In this document: positions 5,996 through 36,579 of the stretch, piece after piece
Layout: the number at the start of each line of letters is the position of its first letter
Position numbering within the stretch: the first letter of the stretch is position 1
Virus record (IMG/VR): IMGVR_UViG_3300032462_000007
Location: 1-56,237 of that record
Strand: one strand, 5' to 3'
Length of the DNA stretch: 56,237 nt
Source: a virus
Position numbers and translations under genes: made by a program
Notes under the pieces: model-generated
Told to the model about the DNA's origin: nothing
Database searches by the model: none
Seen by the model: only the letters and a program-made list of their open reading frames with translations

Positions 5996-6034
5996 AAACT
6001 TATTAAACAATCTACCTTATAGGAGAAAATAAAA

Positions 6035-7024
6035 ATGGCTGATAACATAGAAATTATAAATGGTGTTGGGTCTTTCTATTCCCTGCGTGAACCTGCTTGG
6101 CATGGTTTGGGCACAGTAGTAAATGATGAACACACTACAAAAGAAGTTTTAGGAATTGCAAATCTATCTAATTGGAATGTTAGATTAGAGGACATTGTTC
6201 TACCTAAAAACTACACAACAAGCAAATCTAATTACATGGTTGTTCGTGACCACCCAGAAACTGGACAGCCAGACGTGCTATCCATTGTTGGTGACCGCTA
6301 CCAAACTTTGCAGAATGAAGAATTGTTTGCTTTTGCAGATAACTTACTTGACGGGGCTCGTTGGGAAACAGCAGGTTCATTAAAGAATGGACGAGTTGTA
6401 TTTGGCTCTCTTGCTCTTGAGCGTGAGACCGTACTTGACCCAACAGGTGTTGCAGATGTAGTAAATACTTACTTACTTGTAAATACCTCACACGATGGCT
6501 CGGTTGCAGTTCAGGCAAGCATTACACCTGTTCGTGTTGTATGTTCAAATACTCTTAATCTTGCTCTGCAAGGCGTTAAGCAGTCTTTCAAAATGCGACA
6601 CACCTCAACACTTGACGGACGTATTCTAATGGCTCGTGAGGCTCTGGGGCTTGCAAACACCTACATGGACGAGTTTGACAAAATGGCACAAGAACTTATT
6701 GAACAAGAAATCACTAAGTCTACTTTTGCTAAGATTGTTGCAACTGCTTACCCAATGCCTAATTTGGAAACAAAAGGTGCTATGACAAAATGGGAGAACA
6801 AAATTGAATTGCTTGATGAGATTTTTTCATCAGATACAAATGCAATGATTAACAATACCGCTTGGGGTGCTTTCAATACCCTGACAGAACGCCTTGACTG
6901 GTATCGTCCTGCACGAGGTGGGAACAACGAGGGTATCCTCGCAAGTGCAAGTGGCTTCGACCCTGTAATAAATGCAGAAAAGAATAGACTGCTAAGCATT
7001 GTGCGACAGGTTGCTTTTGCATAA
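6035..7024 (+). CDS. DUF932 phage/plasmid-like protein
   Basis: 329 residues; a good match to the DUF932 family (also known as phage/plasmid-like protein TIGR03299). Landmarks: the N-terminal EPAWHGLGTVV near residue 17, SIVGDRYQTLQNEELFAFAD near 83, a VRVVCSNTLNLAL motif near 165 and a C-terminal GAFNTLTERLDW. Homologues are common in phages and conjugative elements and are thought to act in DNA metabolism, without proof. RBS TAGGAGAAAAT. It is the largest gene of the left arm and the only one of its unit. Confidence 0.85.
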   Translation: MADNIEIINGVGSFYSLREPAWHGLGTVVNDEHTTKEVLGIANLSNWNVRLEDIVLPKNYTTSKSNYMVVRDHPETGQPDVLSIVGDRYQTLQNEELFAFADNLLDGARWETAGSLKNGRVVFGSLALERETVLDPTGVADVVNTYLLVNTSHDGSVAVQASITPVRVVCSNTLNLALQGVKQSFKMRHTSTLDGRILMAREALGLANTYMDEFDKMAQELIEQEITKSTFAKIVATAYPMPNLETKGAMTKWENKIELLDEIFSSDTNAMINNTAWGAFNTLTERLDWYRPARGGNNEGILASASGFDPVINAEKNRLLSIVRQVAFA

Positions 7025-9932: not shown

Positions 9933-10042
9933 GACCGCGCCCACATTTTAAACATTCAACATTATTAAGAATAAGCCATTTTTCCCCTGGATATTTTGGG
10001 GAATATTAGATATTTGACAAATAAAGACATAAGGAGTATAAT
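9933..10042 (+). promoter_or_regulatory. intergenic cassette with perfect promoter, leaderless
   Basis: Degenerate ACCGCGCCC box, TTATTAAGAATAAG element and a CCCCTGGATATTTTGGGG palindrome, then TTGACA (10014-10019), 17-bp spacer, TATAAT (10037-10042). ATG 10049 follows exactly 6 nt after the -10. Confidence 0.8.
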
Positions 10043-10048
10043 AGATAT

Positions 10049-10576
10049 ATGACCATTGTAATAGGGCTTATTCAAGAGGGTATTATATATATGGGATCAG
10101 ATAGAAGTATGAGTGATTTATATAGTATATCTTCTCCTATTACCCCGAAAATAAAAAAGAATGGTCAATTTTTAATTGGTTATGCATCTTCAAGAGGTAC
10201 TGGTCAAATAGCTCATTATATGGATTTTCCAAATGTTCTTAAAAAGGATGTTGATAAATATATGAGAACTGAATTTATATTTGCCCTTAAAAAAGAGATT
10301 GATAAATTTGGTTTAGATATATCAGATGATGATAAAGCTGCTGCAGATTTTCTGGTAGGAATTCATGGAAGACTATTTGATATCTCTACTAATGAATGGC
10401 AGGTAAATGAATATGATAAATATACTGCTATTGGAGCTGGTAGTTCATTTGCAATAGGTTCATTAGATACCTCAGAATCATGGAAAGATCCTGTTAAGAA
10501 AATAAAGAAAGCTTTAGATGTAGCTATTAATAACAATCCTAATTGTAAATATCCTATTGACATTTTACATTCATAG
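10049..10576 (+). CDS. proteasome beta / HslV-like Ntn-hydrolase
   Basis: 175 residues that start MTIVIGLIQEGIIYMGSDRS. If Met1 is removed, Thr becomes residue 1, Asp falls at position 17 (SDR) and Lys at 33 (PKIKK), exactly the catalytic Thr1/Asp17/Lys33 spacing of proteasome beta subunits and HslV. GAGSSFAIGSL (about 129-139) corresponds to the conserved Ser129 loop. Phage homologues of this kind are often called HslV-like; whether they assemble or cleave is unknown. There is no propeptide and no RBS: the ATG sits at the predicted transcription start. No HslU- or Mpa-like ATPase is present in the window. Confidence 0.75.
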   Translation: MTIVIGLIQEGIIYMGSDRSMSDLYSISSPITPKIKKNGQFLIGYASSRGTGQIAHYMDFPNVLKKDVDKYMRTEFIFALKKEIDKFGLDISDDDKAAADFLVGIHGRLFDISTNEWQVNEYDKYTAIGAGSSFAIGSLDTSESWKDPVKKIKKALDVAINNNPNCKYPIDILHS

Positions 10577-11963: not shown

Positions 11964-12311
11964 TCATGAGAAGGAGTCCCCACAAGCGCATGAGCCACCA
12001 GAATTTGGGTTGTCTATTGTGAAACCTTGCTTCTCAAGAGTGTCGTCATATTCGATCACAGAGCCGCTAAGATACGGTATACTCGTCCGATCTACGACCA
12101 AATCTACGTCATTTACTTTTGTGTTGAAGTCACCATCAAGGACTCTATCATCAAAGAATAGCTGGTAACGTAATCCAGAGCAACCTCCAGGTTGAACGGA
12201 TATGCGAAGGCTTAAGTCATCTCTACCCTCTTGGTCTAAAAATTGCTTAACTTTTGTAGCAGCAGTTTCTGTAATTAAAATGCTATTTTCTTGAATCGTC
12301 TCTGTTGTCAT
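11964..12311 (-). CDS. erpA: A-type Fe-S cluster carrier (ErpA/IscA/HesB family)
   Basis: 115 residues, full length for the family. The three cluster-binding cysteines are present: Cys44 in GGCSGLRYQL, and Cys108 and Cys110 in SCACGDSF. LSGSVIEYDD matches the conserved 'L-x-G-x-x-I-D/E-Y' strand, with the usual N-P-N and G-C-G-C-like end. Such proteins deliver [2Fe-2S]/[4Fe-4S] clusters to apo-targets. It is a single gene behind a perfect leaderless promoter, so strong independent expression is likely. A plausible client is the phage or host WhiB, but that is inference. Confidence 0.92.
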   Translation of the reverse strand: MTTETIQENSILITETAATKVKQFLDQEGRDDLSLRISVQPGGCSGLRYQLFFDDRVLDGDFNTKVNDVDLVVDRTSIPYLSGSVIEYDDTLEKQGFTIDNPNSGGSCACGDSFS

Positions 12312-18046: not shown

Positions 18047-18979
18047 CTATCTGTCGAATCCAGTTGCGACAACTGTTACTAAGATTCCTTCACCAAGCGA
18101 CTCATCATCAACTGTTCCAAATATAATAGTTGCATCCTCATGTGCCTTATTTGATACAAGAGTTGCAATATGATTAACTTCTGATAATTTTATATCTGTT
18201 GAACCTGCAATTGAAATAAGAACTCCAGTAGCACCATTTAAATCTATCTCTAATATTGGACTTGTAATTGCTTGATTACCAGCTTTTTCAGCACGATCTT
18301 CGCCTTCTGCATAGCCAATACCCATAAACGCCGTACCAGCATCTTTCATAATCTTTCTAATATCAGCAAAGTCAATATTTATTTTTCCAGGGGTTGTTAC
18401 TAAATCTGATATACATGCTACAGCCTTTAACAAAACATTGTCAGCCTCTTTAAAAGCATCTTCCATAGTAATGTCTGGATCAAGCATAGCAATTAAATTC
18501 TCATTTGGTATAGTTATTAGAGTATCTACTTCATTTTTAAGATTAGCAATACCTTCAAGAGCAAAAGCCATTCTTACTTTCCCTTCAAATGAAAATGGTT
18601 TTGTAACAACTCCAATTGTAAGAGCTCCTGTAGATTTTGCACATTTTGCAACTACTGGTGCAGACCCTGTTCCAGTTCCGCCACCCATTCCCGCAGTAAC
18701 AAATACTACATCTGCGCCTTCAACAACTTCTTTTAATTGATCAACACTATCTTTTGCAGAAAGTCTTCCAATTTCAGGATTTGAACCAGCTCCAAGTCCA
18801 CCAGTTCTTTCTCTCCCAATGTCTATTTTTACATCAGCGAAACTTGGCATCAATGCTTGTATATCAGTATTGATAGCAATGAACTCAACTCCAGAAAGTC
18901 CTGCTTCAATCATACCGTTGACAGCATTAACACCGCCACCACCGCAGCCTATAACTTTTATATTTATTAATTTACTCAT
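18047..18979 (-). CDS. ftsZ: FtsZ cell-division GTPase lacking the C-terminal tail
   Basis: 310 residues, clearly bacterial FtsZ rather than PhuZ or TubZ. GTP-binding N terminus IGCGGGGVNAVNGMI with INTD at 36-39; tubulin signature GMGGGTGTGSAPV (97-109); T7 synergy loop NIDFADIR (201-208) with Asp203 and Asp206, which complete the GTPase site of the next subunit. The chain ends at VTVVATGFDR, the end of the globular domain; the disordered linker and conserved C-terminal peptide that bind SepF, FtsA and others in bacteria (usual length 370-450) are absent. It should co-polymerise or compete with host FtsZ but cannot be tethered. Leaderless -10 at 18987-18992. Confidence 0.95.
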   Translation of the reverse strand: MSKLINIKVIGCGGGGVNAVNGMIEAGLSGVEFIAINTDIQALMPSFADVKIDIGRERTGGLGAGSNPEIGRLSAKDSVDQLKEVVEGADVVFVTAGMGGGTGTGSAPVVAKCAKSTGALTIGVVTKPFSFEGKVRMAFALEGIANLKNEVDTLITIPNENLIAMLDPDITMEDAFKEADNVLLKAVACISDLVTTPGKINIDFADIRKIMKDAGTAFMGIGYAEGEDRAEKAGNQAITSPILEIDLNGATGVLISIAGSTDIKLSEVNHIATLVSNKAHEDATIIFGTVDDESLGEGILVTVVATGFDR

Positions 18980-22882: not shown

Positions 22883-23163
22883 TATTCTTTTTCCATTGTC
22901 ATTCCAGACCAGATATCAAACCAGTCTGTTTTTTCTTTATGACTATTAAATTCTTTAGATATCTTTCCGCCCTCTAAATAAACGCCGCCCCACACACCCC
23001 ACTCAGAATTACTAACTCCGTAAGCGAGGCACTGTCTTTGTGCTGGACAACTTATACATAATAGGTCTACTTTCTTTGAGACTTCCTTGTCTTCTTCATA
23101 TTGATCAAAAAACAAGTTGGTATCCATATTAAGACAGGATGCTTTTTCATCGAACTTGTACAT
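22882..23163 (-). CDS. whiB: WhiB-family Fe-S transcriptional regulator
   Basis: 93 residues with the four cluster cysteines Cys10, Cys36, Cys39 and Cys45 (CISCPAQRQC) and the GVWGG turn at 56-60 that contacts sigma factor, followed by a basic C-terminal stretch. WhiB proteins bind [4Fe-4S], interact with region 4 of the principal sigma factor and occur only in actinobacteria and their phages. In phages they can block host WhiB functions. RBS AAGGAAGGG. It is a candidate for control of the phage promoters with non-consensus -35 regions. Confidence 0.93.
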   Translation of the reverse strand: MYKFDEKASCLNMDTNLFFDQYEEDKEVSKKVDLLCISCPAQRQCLAYGVSNSEWGVWGGVYLEGGKISKEFNSHKEKTDWFDIWSGMTMEKE

Positions 23164-32484: not shown

Positions 32485-34746
32485 TTATAATACCTCCATT
32501 AGTGTAGTAGTTCCTTCTTTTGTCTTTCCAAAATTAATCTTTGCCACGCTACCTGGCTGACACTTCATGTACCCAGTCGAGAACATTGTTGGAAATACCA
32601 TTGCAGCAATCATCTCTCTTGAACTATTAGCAACAATCATATTAGCCATTCTTTTTCCAGCCTTAGTAACCCTTGGAGTAAATGATAGCACAAAGTGCTC
32701 ATCATTTGCAAATGGGACTTGCTTATAGTTTAAAAACTTAATAAGAGGACTATCTTTATGCTCTTTTAATTCATCAACTGGAATTGCTTCAGAGATTCTA
32801 TTTGCACCTGCAAGAATTAAATATGTTCTTCCAGGCTCAATTTTAGTCTCTTCTTCATCAAATATTCCGACTACTCCAGTTGAGTCCATAATTTCTACTC
32901 TTGACCAACCTTTACCACGCTTAATATTTTTTGCAATGCCAAGAAGAACAAATACATTTTCTTCATCAAATTCTTCTATCAAACTTACATAAGCATAATA
33001 GTGTTGAGGAATGCTTGTATTCAATTCAGGTAGATTAAGATACTCATAAAGATTTTCTCTTACCCTTTCTTCATCCCTCGGATTATCTGCAAATGTTAAT
33101 GCGCCAATTGAATCAAGTGCTTCGACTGCTCTTGAACTAATTCCACTTGCCTTTTCATGAGAGAAGTCTTGGAACTCTTGCTTCGACTGAAACGGTCTAC
33201 CTGAAATAATCTTCTTGGCAACTCCGTCAGATAGCCACTTGATTGCAGCAAGGCCAAATCTAATGCCATTGCCCTCAATTTTGAAGTCTGAATCTGACTC
33301 ATTGATATGTGGAAGCTTTAACGAGATTCCCATGCGCTTTGCCTCAATTAAATATTCTGTACGGGTATCGCTATCTTTCTCACTCTTTAGAATTGAGAAT
33401 ATAAATTCGATTGGGTAGTATTGCTTAAGCCAAGCAGTCCAATAGGATAGCGTTGAGTATGCGACAGCGTGAGACTTGTTAAAGGAATATCCTGCATGAG
33501 CCTCGAAATCGTGCCATAACTTTGTTGCCCTAATTCCGATATGCTTTTCTGCATTGTTAATAAACTTATCTTTAAAGAGGTCAAACTCTTTGGCATCCTT
33601 TTTCTTTCCAATAATCTTACGAACCTTGTCCGCCTCAACCATTGTCATGCCACCGAGAATAACACACGCTTGCATTACTTGCTCCTGATACAAAACACAT
33701 CCATAGGTATCTTTCAAATAATCATTCATAGACGGATGAATATATTCCACCATCTCCTTGCCATGCTTACGGGCAATGTATGATTTTCCAATGGTATTCA
33801 TAGCACCTGGTCTAACAAGAGCATTGGATGCAACTAATTCATCAAAGTTATTAACCCTCAACTTAATCAAAAGATTTGTATAAGGCCTTGCCTCACACTG
33901 GAAGACACCCTTAGTACGCCCCTCAGACAGCATTTCAAATACTTTTCTGTCATTTAGGGGTATTGCCTTTAGATCAATATCTATTCCGTGACGTTCTTTA
34001 ATTGTTTTAATAGTCTGATCAATTACAGTCAATGTTTTTAGACCAAGAATATCAAGTTTAATAAGTCCAATTTCAGCAGCTTCTTCCATATCAACTGCGA
34101 CTACTGGAATTCTTTTCTTACTACCTGGGGCTACCCGTGTTTCAAGTGGTGCATATTTAAAAATTTCATCCTTTGCAGTAACAACTCCTGCAGCATGGAT
34201 TCCAGTTCCACGGATTCTTCCTCTAAGTTGCTCACCATATTTAACAATTTCAGGGTATTTCATTCTAAACCATTGTGCTCCTGCTGATCTTGTAAAGTCT
34301 TCCCAAGTGTCAACACTCTTCAAAACTTTATTCACATCATTAAGAGGGATGTTAAATGCTCTGGCAACATCTCTTACAACACCCTTTTCTTTAAATTCTA
34401 AGAATGTAGCAATAGATGCAACATTTTTATATTCCCGTTCAAGATATGACTTTACTTCTTCTCGCCTATCATCTGCAAAGTCAGTATCTATGTCTGGGAA
34501 GTCCTCGCGGCCATGATAAACCTCTAAGCCTACAGGATAGGTCTTTGGTTCTTCATCTGTTATCCCAATCAAGTATGCAACTGAAGAAGAAATCTTGTTA
34601 GATACCTTTTCTTTACCAACATGCTTCAGATATAGATCTTCAATTTTAAGATTATTTATTGCACATATCTCGTCAACTACCCACGAATCATCTAGAACAG
34701 ATCTCTTTGATTGACTCACTAAATCCTTCAGGTCTAAAATCGACAT
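32485..34746 (-). CDS. dnaE: DNA polymerase III alpha, C-terminal part of split DnaE
   Basis: 753 residues containing all three catalytic aspartates: FPDIDTDF (Asp85, Asp87) and KLDILGLKTLTVID (near 237). Then finger motifs VRPGAMNTIGKSYIARKHGK, GCVLYQEQVMQ, HAGYSFNKSHAVAYSTLSYW, and an OB domain near 600-700. Residues 1-79 have no counterpart in ordinary DnaE: the polymerase homology begins at Arg80 (REDFPDID). Its ATG has its own RBS (AAAGAAAGG) lying inside the HNH gene, so it is made as a separate chain that must pair with the N-terminal part (35290-36579). Confidence 0.9.
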   Translation of the reverse strand: MSILDLKDLVSQSKRSVLDDSWVVDEICAINNLKIEDLYLKHVGKEKVSNKISSSVAYLIGITDEEPKTYPVGLEVYHGREDFPDIDTDFADDRREEVKSYLEREYKNVASIATFLEFKEKGVVRDVARAFNIPLNDVNKVLKSVDTWEDFTRSAGAQWFRMKYPEIVKYGEQLRGRIRGTGIHAAGVVTAKDEIFKYAPLETRVAPGSKKRIPVVAVDMEEAAEIGLIKLDILGLKTLTVIDQTIKTIKERHGIDIDLKAIPLNDRKVFEMLSEGRTKGVFQCEARPYTNLLIKLRVNNFDELVASNALVRPGAMNTIGKSYIARKHGKEMVEYIHPSMNDYLKDTYGCVLYQEQVMQACVILGGMTMVEADKVRKIIGKKKDAKEFDLFKDKFINNAEKHIGIRATKLWHDFEAHAGYSFNKSHAVAYSTLSYWTAWLKQYYPIEFIFSILKSEKDSDTRTEYLIEAKRMGISLKLPHINESDSDFKIEGNGIRFGLAAIKWLSDGVAKKIISGRPFQSKQEFQDFSHEKASGISSRAVEALDSIGALTFADNPRDEERVRENLYEYLNLPELNTSIPQHYYAYVSLIEEFDEENVFVLLGIAKNIKRGKGWSRVEIMDSTGVVGIFDEEETKIEPGRTYLILAGANRISEAIPVDELKEHKDSPLIKFLNYKQVPFANDEHFVLSFTPRVTKAGKRMANMIVANSSREMIAAMVFPTMFSTGYMKCQPGSVAKINFGKTKEGTTTLMEVL

Positions 34747-35266
34747 GTCTTCTACCTTTCTTTAAGTTGCACCTCAGGCACATTGGCTGTATATTGTCAT
34801 AGGCGTTATGGCCCCCATTAATCAATGGAATTACATGGTCTACACTATCTGCAAAAACTTCTTCACAGGCAATGCATAGATACTTTGTTAATTGTAGTGC
34901 CGCTTCCCACTCTTTCACGCTTAGTATACCAGGATAACCCTTATTCCTACACTTTTGATTACTCCTGTGAGCGAGTAGCTGAACCCTATTCTTTTTCCTA
35001 TATATTGCTAGAGTCTCTTTTATTCTTTCGGGATTTCGATCACGCCATTCTTTATGCTTTTTTAAATAAACGGGGTCACCTCTTACTTTTTGCCAGCGAG
35101 CTTTCCCGTACTCACTCTTTTTTTCCTTGCTTCTAGTTGCTTCATATTTTTTTGACAGGACCTTCTTACACTCTTTACAATGACCCTGAACACCATTAGA
35201 TGTCTTAGAGCTTCTGTGATACTCTGAAAAATCTTTAGTAATTCCGCATAGGGGACATCTTTTCAT
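34688..35266 (-). CDS. HNH homing endonuclease inside dnaE
   Basis: 192 residues. N-terminal zinc pair CPLC...CKEC (4-7, 31-34), a basic helical middle (KEWRDRNPERIKETLAIYRK), then the HNH core CIACEEVFADSVDHVIPLIN (about 131-150), GGHNAYDNIQPMCLRCN. Same architecture as the HNH protein at 19336. It sits between the two dnaE parts, in the same orientation, with its own leaderless promoter, and overlaps the dnaE-C start by 59 nt. Expected to cut intron-less or intact dnaE alleles of related phages near the insertion point. Confidence 0.9.
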   Translation of the reverse strand: MKRCPLCGITKDFSEYHRSSKTSNGVQGHCKECKKVLSKKYEATRSKEKKSEYGKARWQKVRGDPVYLKKHKEWRDRNPERIKETLAIYRKKNRVQLLAHRSNQKCRNKGYPGILSVKEWEAALQLTKYLCIACEEVFADSVDHVIPLINGGHNAYDNIQPMCLRCNLKKGRRHVDFRPEGFSESIKEICSR

Positions 35267-35272
35267 AATTTA

Positions 35273-35301
35273 AGTATATCACACATTCATCAAATGGCCA
35301 A
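35273..35301 (-). promoter_or_regulatory. leaderless promoter of the dnaE-embedded HNH gene
   Basis: Minus strand: TTGGCC (35301-35296, in the last codons of dnaE-N), 17-bp spacer, TATACT (35278-35273), 6 nt, ATG 35266. Confidence 0.6.
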
Positions 35302-36579
35302 ATCAAAACCTGAAAAACTTTCCCACTTAGCCTGGTCACCACTTATAAATCTAAAGAAAAGCAATCCATATTCAATAGGATCAATATCTGTAATTCCAAG
35401 TGCATAGCATACCAAAGAACCTGCAGCACTACCTCGACCTGGACCAACCATAATGCCTTGCTCTTTTGCCCAACTAATCATATTATTAACAACTAAGAAA
35501 TATGGTGAAAAGTTTTTTGACTTAATAACACTAAGTTCTAAATCTAATCTATCTAAATATTCTTTATTTTCAGAGAATCCCTTTAGATTTATTCCTCTAT
35601 AAGCAAGTGCCATAAGTTCTTGATCTGGATCTTCAACATTTATTGGAAGAAGTTCGAGCCCACTATGAATTGTATATTCTTCAACCTTGTTTGCAATCTC
35701 AACAGTATTTTCATAGATATCTTCACGCTTGATTCCCTGATTTTGCATGGCAGTTTTAATTTCTTCATAAGACAATAGGTGAATATCAAATGTTCTAAAA
35801 CTCATCATTCTATCTTCCCCATATAAATAGTCAAGTCTTTTCATTGGGTCTTCAATCTTTGAAGCCTTTTCAAAAGTTGTATCTTTCTTAACCTTTGCAT
35901 GGGTATTAAGAAGTAGCATCATTTCCTGGATTACTTTTTGACTCTTGTCAGAGTGGTGGCAATCAGGTGTTACTACTGGCTTGACATCGTAGGTGTCAGC
36001 CATTTCTAATAATTCTTTATTTAGTTCCGCAGGATTATGTGGCATAAGCTCAACATAAAAGTCATCCCCAAAGTTTTCTTTGAACCAAGTCATTAGTTTT
36101 TTTGCAGCAGCATATTCTTTATGCTCAATTGCTTTAGCAAGAAGCCCACTCATACAGGCTGACAATACTATAATTCCCTCTTTATATTTTTCTAAAATTT
36201 CAAAGTCAATTCTTGGCTTTCTGTAATATCCTTCAGTCCAAGCTAACTCATTTAACTTATTTAAATTTTCCAAACCTTTATCATTTTTTGCAAGAAGAAC
36301 TATGTGGTTATAAACCATGTCTAATGGATCAGTTCTTTCAGATTTATCTCTTGTGTCAAATCTATCTGCTGTGATATAGCCTTCAATGCCCAATATAGGC
36401 TTTATTCCATTTGCTTTTGCAGCCCTATACATTGGTCTATGGCCCGACAGAACGCCGTGGTCTGTTACTGCAATAGCAGATAGTCCAATCTCAGAAGCAC
36501 GTTTTGCATATTCTTCTGGTGTCGCAACTCCATCCATTAGGGAGTAGTGAGTGTGTACATGAAGTGGAACGTAAGTCAT
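35290..36579 (-). CDS. dnaE: DNA polymerase III alpha, N-terminal part of split DnaE
   Basis: 429 residues. PHP domain: PLHVHTHYSLMDG at 4-16, AIAVTDHGVLSG near 36, and HHSD near 208. Palm start: VGPGRGSAAGSLVCYALGIT near 380. Polymerase homology ends at RFISGD (410-415); residues 416-429 (QAKWESFSGFDLAI) are unrelated. In intact DnaE seven residues separate RF(L/I) from PDID, and SGD here plus REDF of the C-terminal part make exactly seven, so the split point is between Asp415 and Arg80 of the partner. PHP metal ligands are largely kept, so proofreading-type activity is possible. Confidence 0.9.
   Translation of the reverse strand: MTYVPLHVHTHYSLMDGVATPEEYAKRASEIGLSAIAVTDHGVLSGHRPMYRAAKANGIKPILGIEGYITADRFDTRDKSERTDPLDMVYNHIVLLAKNDKGLENLNKLNELAWTEGYYRKPRIDFEILEKYKEGIIVLSACMSGLLAKAIEHKEYAAAKKLMTWFKENFGDDFYVELMPHNPAELNKELLEMADTYDVKPVVTPDCHHSDKSQKVIQEMMLLLNTHAKVKKDTTFEKASKIEDPMKRLDYLYGEDRMMSFRTFDIHLLSYEEIKTAMQNQGIKREDIYENTVEIANKVEEYTIHSGLELLPINVEDPDQELMALAYRGINLKGFSENKEYLDRLDLELSVIKSKNFSPYFLVVNNMISWAKEQGIMVGPGRGSAAGSLVCYALGITDIDPIEYGLLFFRFISGDQAKWESFSGFDLAI

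Follow-up and report, generated by a model that had tools for sequence, protein, structure and literature searches.

A proteasome-like protein with a predicted N-terminal threonine nucleophile in a phage of actinobacteria

A virus record from an actinobacterial phage carries the gene of a small proteasome-like protein, whose conserved catalytic residues and predicted fold point to an N-terminal-threonine hydrolase. The gene lies at positions 10049..10576 (+) of the window, that is, the whole stretch of DNA analysed here, a 56,237-base virus record with a GC content of 36% that also holds terminase, primase, DnaB, Pol III alpha and tail genes. Its intact ORF starts with ATG and codes for a protein of 175 aa, which we class as group I and AAH-like. 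Taken as a whole, the data are best explained by a leaderless-expressed, self-assembling, ATPase-free and BPH-like N-terminal-threonine hydrolase of this group, an explanation that we hold to be probable, with some reserve. Its grounds are the gene itself, the conserved catalytic residues, the predicted fold, purifying selection, the actinophage context, the promoter sequence and the lack of an AAA or AAA_2 partner. Proteasome homologs have been known in phages since 2021, when Fuchs, Alva and Lupas reported 22 new homologs of the proteasome, with PPH and AAH among those present in phages (PMC8665760). In this regard, the new elements are the occurrence in actinophages, a predicted leaderless expression, an Ala129 variant and the fact that no encoded unfoldase was found. 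The literature searched held no phage proteasome homolog with a tested function, and nothing relevant on phage proteasome-like enzymes besides PMC8665760 and one jumbo-phage annotation.

Promoter and start of the gene

The gene is preceded by a perfect -35 box (TTGACA, 10014..10019, +) and, after a 17-nt spacer, by a perfect -10 box (TATAAT, 10037..10042, +) that ends 6 nt before the ATG. The transcription start expected from such a TTGACA-N17-TATAAT unit is the A of the ATG itself, and the mRNA is, judging from this arrangement, probably leaderless. Perfect promoter units followed after 5-8 nt by an ATG or GTG occur twice in the window and not once in 40 first-order simulations. The second unit, also a perfect TTGACA-N17-TATAAT-N6-ATG, belongs to a gene starting at 12311 on the minus strand (11964-12311), which encodes an A-type Fe-S carrier of the ErpA/IscA-like type (PF01521, E 2.4e-16). 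Boxes located about 10-12 bp upstream are taken as a sign of leaderless genes, which make up on average 19% of the genes in Actinobacteria (PMC3160421). In this line, a TANNNT box is found 6-7 nt before the ATG in 12/12 genes of the window clade and exactly 6 nt before it in 59/59 genes of a related clade of ~115-kb records. In a group of contigs with 45% identity the box precedes the ATG in only 1/4 genes, and a Shine-Dalgarno-like AAAGGAAAGAA replaces it in at least one of them (L050).

A predicted leaderless mRNA that starts at the ATG could not encode a propeptide, whose absence had already been claimed from the sequence alone and is borne out here. The in-frame open stretch upstream of the ATG spans just 8 codons with no start codon among them, and the promoter adjoins the ATG, which rules out a missed propeptide or upstream start. 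A few close relatives do show in-frame start-type codons 12-18 codons upstream, beyond the predicted transcription start. Since among proteasome homologs propeptides are confined to 20S beta and HslV (PMC8665760), such an absence is the normal situation for any other homolog. The product begins with MTIVIGL, and its ORF, compared with those of nine relatives, shows dN/dS values of 0.16-0.25, which indicates purifying selection.

Active site, fold and nearest homologs

The sequence-only reading had proposed a proteasome-beta-like enzyme with exact Thr1/Asp17/Lys33 spacing. The first part is upheld by the sequence profile and the predicted fold, and the spacing is correct once the Met is removed and is largely kept across 76 distinct proteins. 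The window protein contains the Thr/Ser1-Asp17-Lys33 triad of the proteasome-like Ntn-hydrolase family: the codon of the catalytic Thr (mature Thr1) is found at 10052..10054 (+), where the 76 distinct relatives have Thr in 67 cases and Ser in 9; that of Asp18 (mature Asp17), at 10100..10102 (+), is invariant (76/76); and that of Lys34 (mature Lys33), at 10148..10150 (+), aligns with Lys in 68/76, falls beside an alignment gap in 7 and is replaced by Arg in 1. Moreover, Gly44 (10178..10180, +), a position held by G or A in nearly all relatives, would correspond by motif to the oxyanion-hole Gly (Gly47 of the proteasome, Gly45 of HslV). The 76 distinct relatives, the profile and the fold rule out a chance resemblance of the Thr/Asp/Lys pattern.

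The claim of a Ser129-like loop stands only in part. The G-x-G loop is present, here as G-A-G (10433..10441, +), with G129 and G131 conserved in 76/76, but the Ser itself is absent. At residue 130 (mature 129), 68 of the distinct proteins have Ser and 7 have Cys, and Ala occurs in the window copy only, which has a GCT codon where 9/9 close relatives compared have TCT. In the yeast 20S proteasome, the amine of Thr1 receives a proton by way of Ser129 and Asp166 (PMC4792962), so that Ala in place of this Ser may, by analogy, weaken the predicted activity of the window copy. The uniqueness of this Ala, a single base away from the codon of the relatives, would also suit a weakened or degenerating enzyme, a reading that we find unlikely because Thr1, Asp17, Lys33 and the ORF are intact, dN/dS is low, the promoter is perfect, and Ala129 may be an assembly or sequencing variant.

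Sequence profiles and the predicted structure place the protein among proteasome homologs. Its residues 1-174 match PHROG 1040, 'peptidase HslV family' (E 7.9e-16), a whole-protein match of which the family label is only a name, as no HslU partner was found. The Pfam model PF00227 gives E 0.051 and 13.7 bits, under its curated cut-off of 22.4, and the same model matches 32/44 relatives at E up to 0.1, with a best value of 1.2e-9. Searching the PDB with a profile of the 44 relatives retrieved BPH (1.4e-11), HslV (5.9e-10) and 20S beta (4.3e-7). An AlphaFold2 monomer prediction, with an input alignment of 44 proteins, yielded a model of high confidence (pLDDT 93.1, pTM 0.90) with a beta-sheet core and flanking helices, and 1000/1000 chains compared with it by Foldseek and VIA-align 2 reached Z 8 or more. 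With rows at most 1 Z apart counted as tied, the matches include BPH (20.3), the 20S beta of S. acidocaldarius (19.9), HslV (19.7) and the M. tuberculosis proteasome (19.5 and lower). The alignment with BPH covers 166 residues, and the aligned range, for BPH as for HslV, begins with residue 2 of the model against residue 1 of the known structure, which suits an enzyme that loses its Met.

Among the described families, the window protein fits AAH better than PPH, a label given by likeness to the published description. AAH are group I homologs with no propeptide and a full helix set, found in alphaproteobacteria, actinobacteria and phages, and the length, helices and distribution of the window family agree with this description. 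Both share a leaderless N-terminal Thr, the Thr/Asp/Lys triad, a compact group I length, a presence in many phages, and Rhizobium-type and Streptomyces relatives. PPH, with ~140 residues and no helix H2, are ruled out by a protein of 175 aa in which helices 49-57 and 65-86 precede the next strand, so that the second helix is present.

BPH is the top solved fold (tied within 1 Z), and shares with the phage protein an acidic loop before the same strand, Thr/Ser variants of the nucleophile and the lack of a known ATPase partner. The two differ in that identity is 18%, BPH is encoded by a cellular gene and builds 14-mers, and the phage protein has Ala at 129. BPH has an elongated acidic pore loop, assembles into 14-mers and binds epoxomicin, and no ATPase is known for it (PMC5777263). 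It showed no protease activity on the model substrates tried (PMC5777263), which leaves protease function unproven even for the best-studied relative. The candidate equivalent of the pore loop comprises residues 87-99 of the window protein (FGLDISDDDKAAA; 10307..10345, +), which link the second helix region to the strand that follows, and carries a net negative charge in 41/44 relatives. It is the least certain stretch of the model, and 14/163 13-mers of the protein, mostly overlapping it, are equally acidic, an unexceptional charge that gives the loop little weight as an argument.

HslV resembles the window protein in fold and catalytic residues, whereas identity is 14-20%, HslV mostly has a propeptide, and no HslU was found in the phage records; none of the NCBIfam HslV equivalog models was among the matches at E up to 0.1. 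The bacterial 20S beta subunit, PrcB, likewise shares the fold and the triad, whereas the window protein has no propeptide and no alpha subunit accompanies it. Its score against TIGR03690 (bacterial 20S beta) is 14.3 bits, far under the cut-off of 191.9.

Host, relatives and genomic neighbourhood

The window contains a WhiB-like gene region (22981..23148, -; PF02467, E 6e-13), a marker of actinobacterial hosts that is also present in three long relatives (73-102 kb) and on 20/23 of the other contigs bearing the proteasome-like gene. The marker was found in 0/12 gene-bearing phage records of non-actinobacterial hosts and, among 14 control genomes, in Corynebacterium glutamicum only. Moreover, the Pol III alpha of the window has 52% identity to that of Streptomyces phages. 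Both the WhiB distribution and this similarity indicate that the phage infects an actinobacterium, in agreement with the earlier proposal. Cellular AAH are most abundant in Actinobacteria, and the 2021 survey reported none in phages specific to Actinobacteria (PMC8665760), whereas the window and most of the carrier contigs tested bear WhiB. This gap is now filled by two or more well-supported clades whose contigs bear WhiB.

The closest relatives are twelve proteins from IMG/VR contigs (80-84%), and a profile search recovered 124 related stretches, of which 80 were kept. Ten matches came from bacterial genomes, mostly of Bacillota and Mycoplasmatota, plus Mesorhizobium, and relatives are also borne by plasmids of Rhizobium, Sinorhizobium, Bacillus and Streptomyces. 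The 33 phage records listed as matches include phages of Moorella, Psychrobacter, Vibrio, Aeromonas, Tenacibaculum and Geobacillus, among others, and none is an actinophage, although Mycobacterium, Streptomyces and Gordonia phages account for hundreds of records in that collection. In the tree, the window clade joins the contigs of 45% identity (100/99), with a looser grouping with L053, while two Streptomyces plasmid homologs sit with the Moorella phage protein, apart from the actinophage clades. Judged from these two plasmid copies, a recent capture from an actinobacterial genome is disfavoured.

Two phage homologs deserve a separate mention. The annotated start of the homolog in Moorella phage MTATph1 (L014:6001-6558) is at 6043, 14 codons past a conserved Met-Thr at 6001; it would remove the catalytic Thr and is probably a mis-annotation. 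Aeromonas phage 2L372X (L022:2001-2963) has two adjacent 'peptidase HslV family' genes, which makes a mixed ring possible.

No cognate ATPase had been noticed in the window, and a search with PF00004 (AAA) and PF07724 (AAA_2) bears this out: both are absent from 18 uncultivated carrier records, namely the window, five relatives and twelve other large ones, several of them of 95-116 kb but fragmentary, whereas 14/14 control genomes were positive. HslU-type PF07724 was found in 0/23 phage records, most of which may be incomplete, against 14/14 controls. Some non-actinobacterial phage records do carry AAA proteins, which are all encoded outside the gene flanks that were read. A phage-encoded unfoldase is thus disfavoured by AAA and AAA_2 searches of the uncultivated carriers, though an ATPase may lie beyond the record ends, belong to another AAA family or be supplied by the host.

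These results bear on the possibility that the protein replaces HslV and partners a host or phage AAA+ unfoldase such as HslU, ClpX or another, which the fold Z to HslV and the PHROG name would favour. We consider it unlikely given the missing AAA/AAA_2 genes of the uncultivated carriers, the lack of any listed HslV in Actinobacteria (PMC8665760 Table 1) and the fact that no AAA+ partners co-occurring with the new proteasome homologs were found (PMC8665760).

An operon partner is also ruled out as a common feature, since conserved neighbours differ from clade to clade: unknown small genes in the window clade, and subtilase, thioredoxin and transmembrane protein genes in the ~115-kb clade. In a record of the latter (L055:5154-6329), the proteasome-like gene is followed by those of an apparently secreted subtilase (PF00082, E 1.1e-14) and of a thioredoxin, and WhiB is found 1-2 kb upstream of it in the records of this clade checked.

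Possible mode of action

For the threonine hydrolase that we favour, the following course of events can be proposed. A host-type promoter belonging to the gene itself would drive a leaderless transcript that presumably begins at the ATG, and the host methionine aminopeptidase would cut Met1 from the product to expose Thr1. The hydroxyl of this residue, activated by Lys33 and Asp17, would then attack amide bonds. Like those of BPH and HslV, its subunits probably assemble on their own into closed homo-oligomeric (double) rings, with the active sites facing inward and an acidic loop at the pore; this ring formation is proposed by homology from a monomer model. With no dedicated AAA+ unfoldase, such an assembly would act independently of ATP during infection, on protein substrates that are small, unfolded or specific.

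A related idea is that the protein is no ring protease but, like connectase, works as a monomer or small oligomer, in the role of a specific amidase or peptide ligase. Connectase, where a proteasome-type active site serves a ligase (PMC8665760), offers a precedent, and the failure of BPH in the protease assays tried (PMC5777263) fits as well. Nevertheless, connectase is marked by two helices inserted between strands 3 and 4 and by the loss of the first helix pair, whereas the model has no such insertion and retains its first helices, and the nearest homologs in both sequence and fold are the ring-forming BPH and HslV, so that we regard this option as rather improbable. A more specific scenario, for which we see only a slim chance, is an actinophage ATPase-free, leaderless-expressed proteasome-like ring (or ligase) that would process specific host or phage proteins at takeover, a viral counterpart of the host 20S proteasome, possibly in mixed assemblies.

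The suggestion of the sequence-only reading that the protein enters PrcB rings and so replaces or poisons the host 20S proteasome, or is fed by the host Mpa/ARC, appears very improbable: an actinobacterial host and the fact that the fold matches include 20S beta chains of Mycobacterium and Rhodococcus, with Z up to ~19.5, speak for it, but identity to PrcB is only 16-17%, the best sequence-profile matches are the self-assembling BPH and HslV and not PrcB, the family also occurs in phages of Bacillota, Bacteroidota and gammaproteobacteria, and the proteasome is not universal in actinobacteria, with Corynebacterium glutamicum outside the PF00227 positives of the control set. As Table 1 of PMC8665760 gives no 20S beta for either Firmicutes or Bacteroidetes, poisoning of PrcB is unlikely as a function of the family. 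Family distribution and the BPH/HslV profiles therefore weigh against both ring replacement or poisoning and Mpa/ARC feeding, while the remaining suggestion, that the protein acts alone, survives. The small size of the protein and its start at the nucleophile make assembly, inhibitor labelling and substrates directly testable in laboratory strains.

Other genes of the window are also of interest. An FtsZ homolog (18047-18979, -) with GTPase and FtsZ_C domains (E 2e-46 and 1.5e-30) is present in the three long relatives of the window and absent from the ~115-kb clade. The Pol III alpha gene is split (32485-36579, -): its PHP part (35290-36576) and its finger part (32485-34743) are separated by a third ORF (34688-35266), an arrangement that may represent either an inserted element or a split gene.
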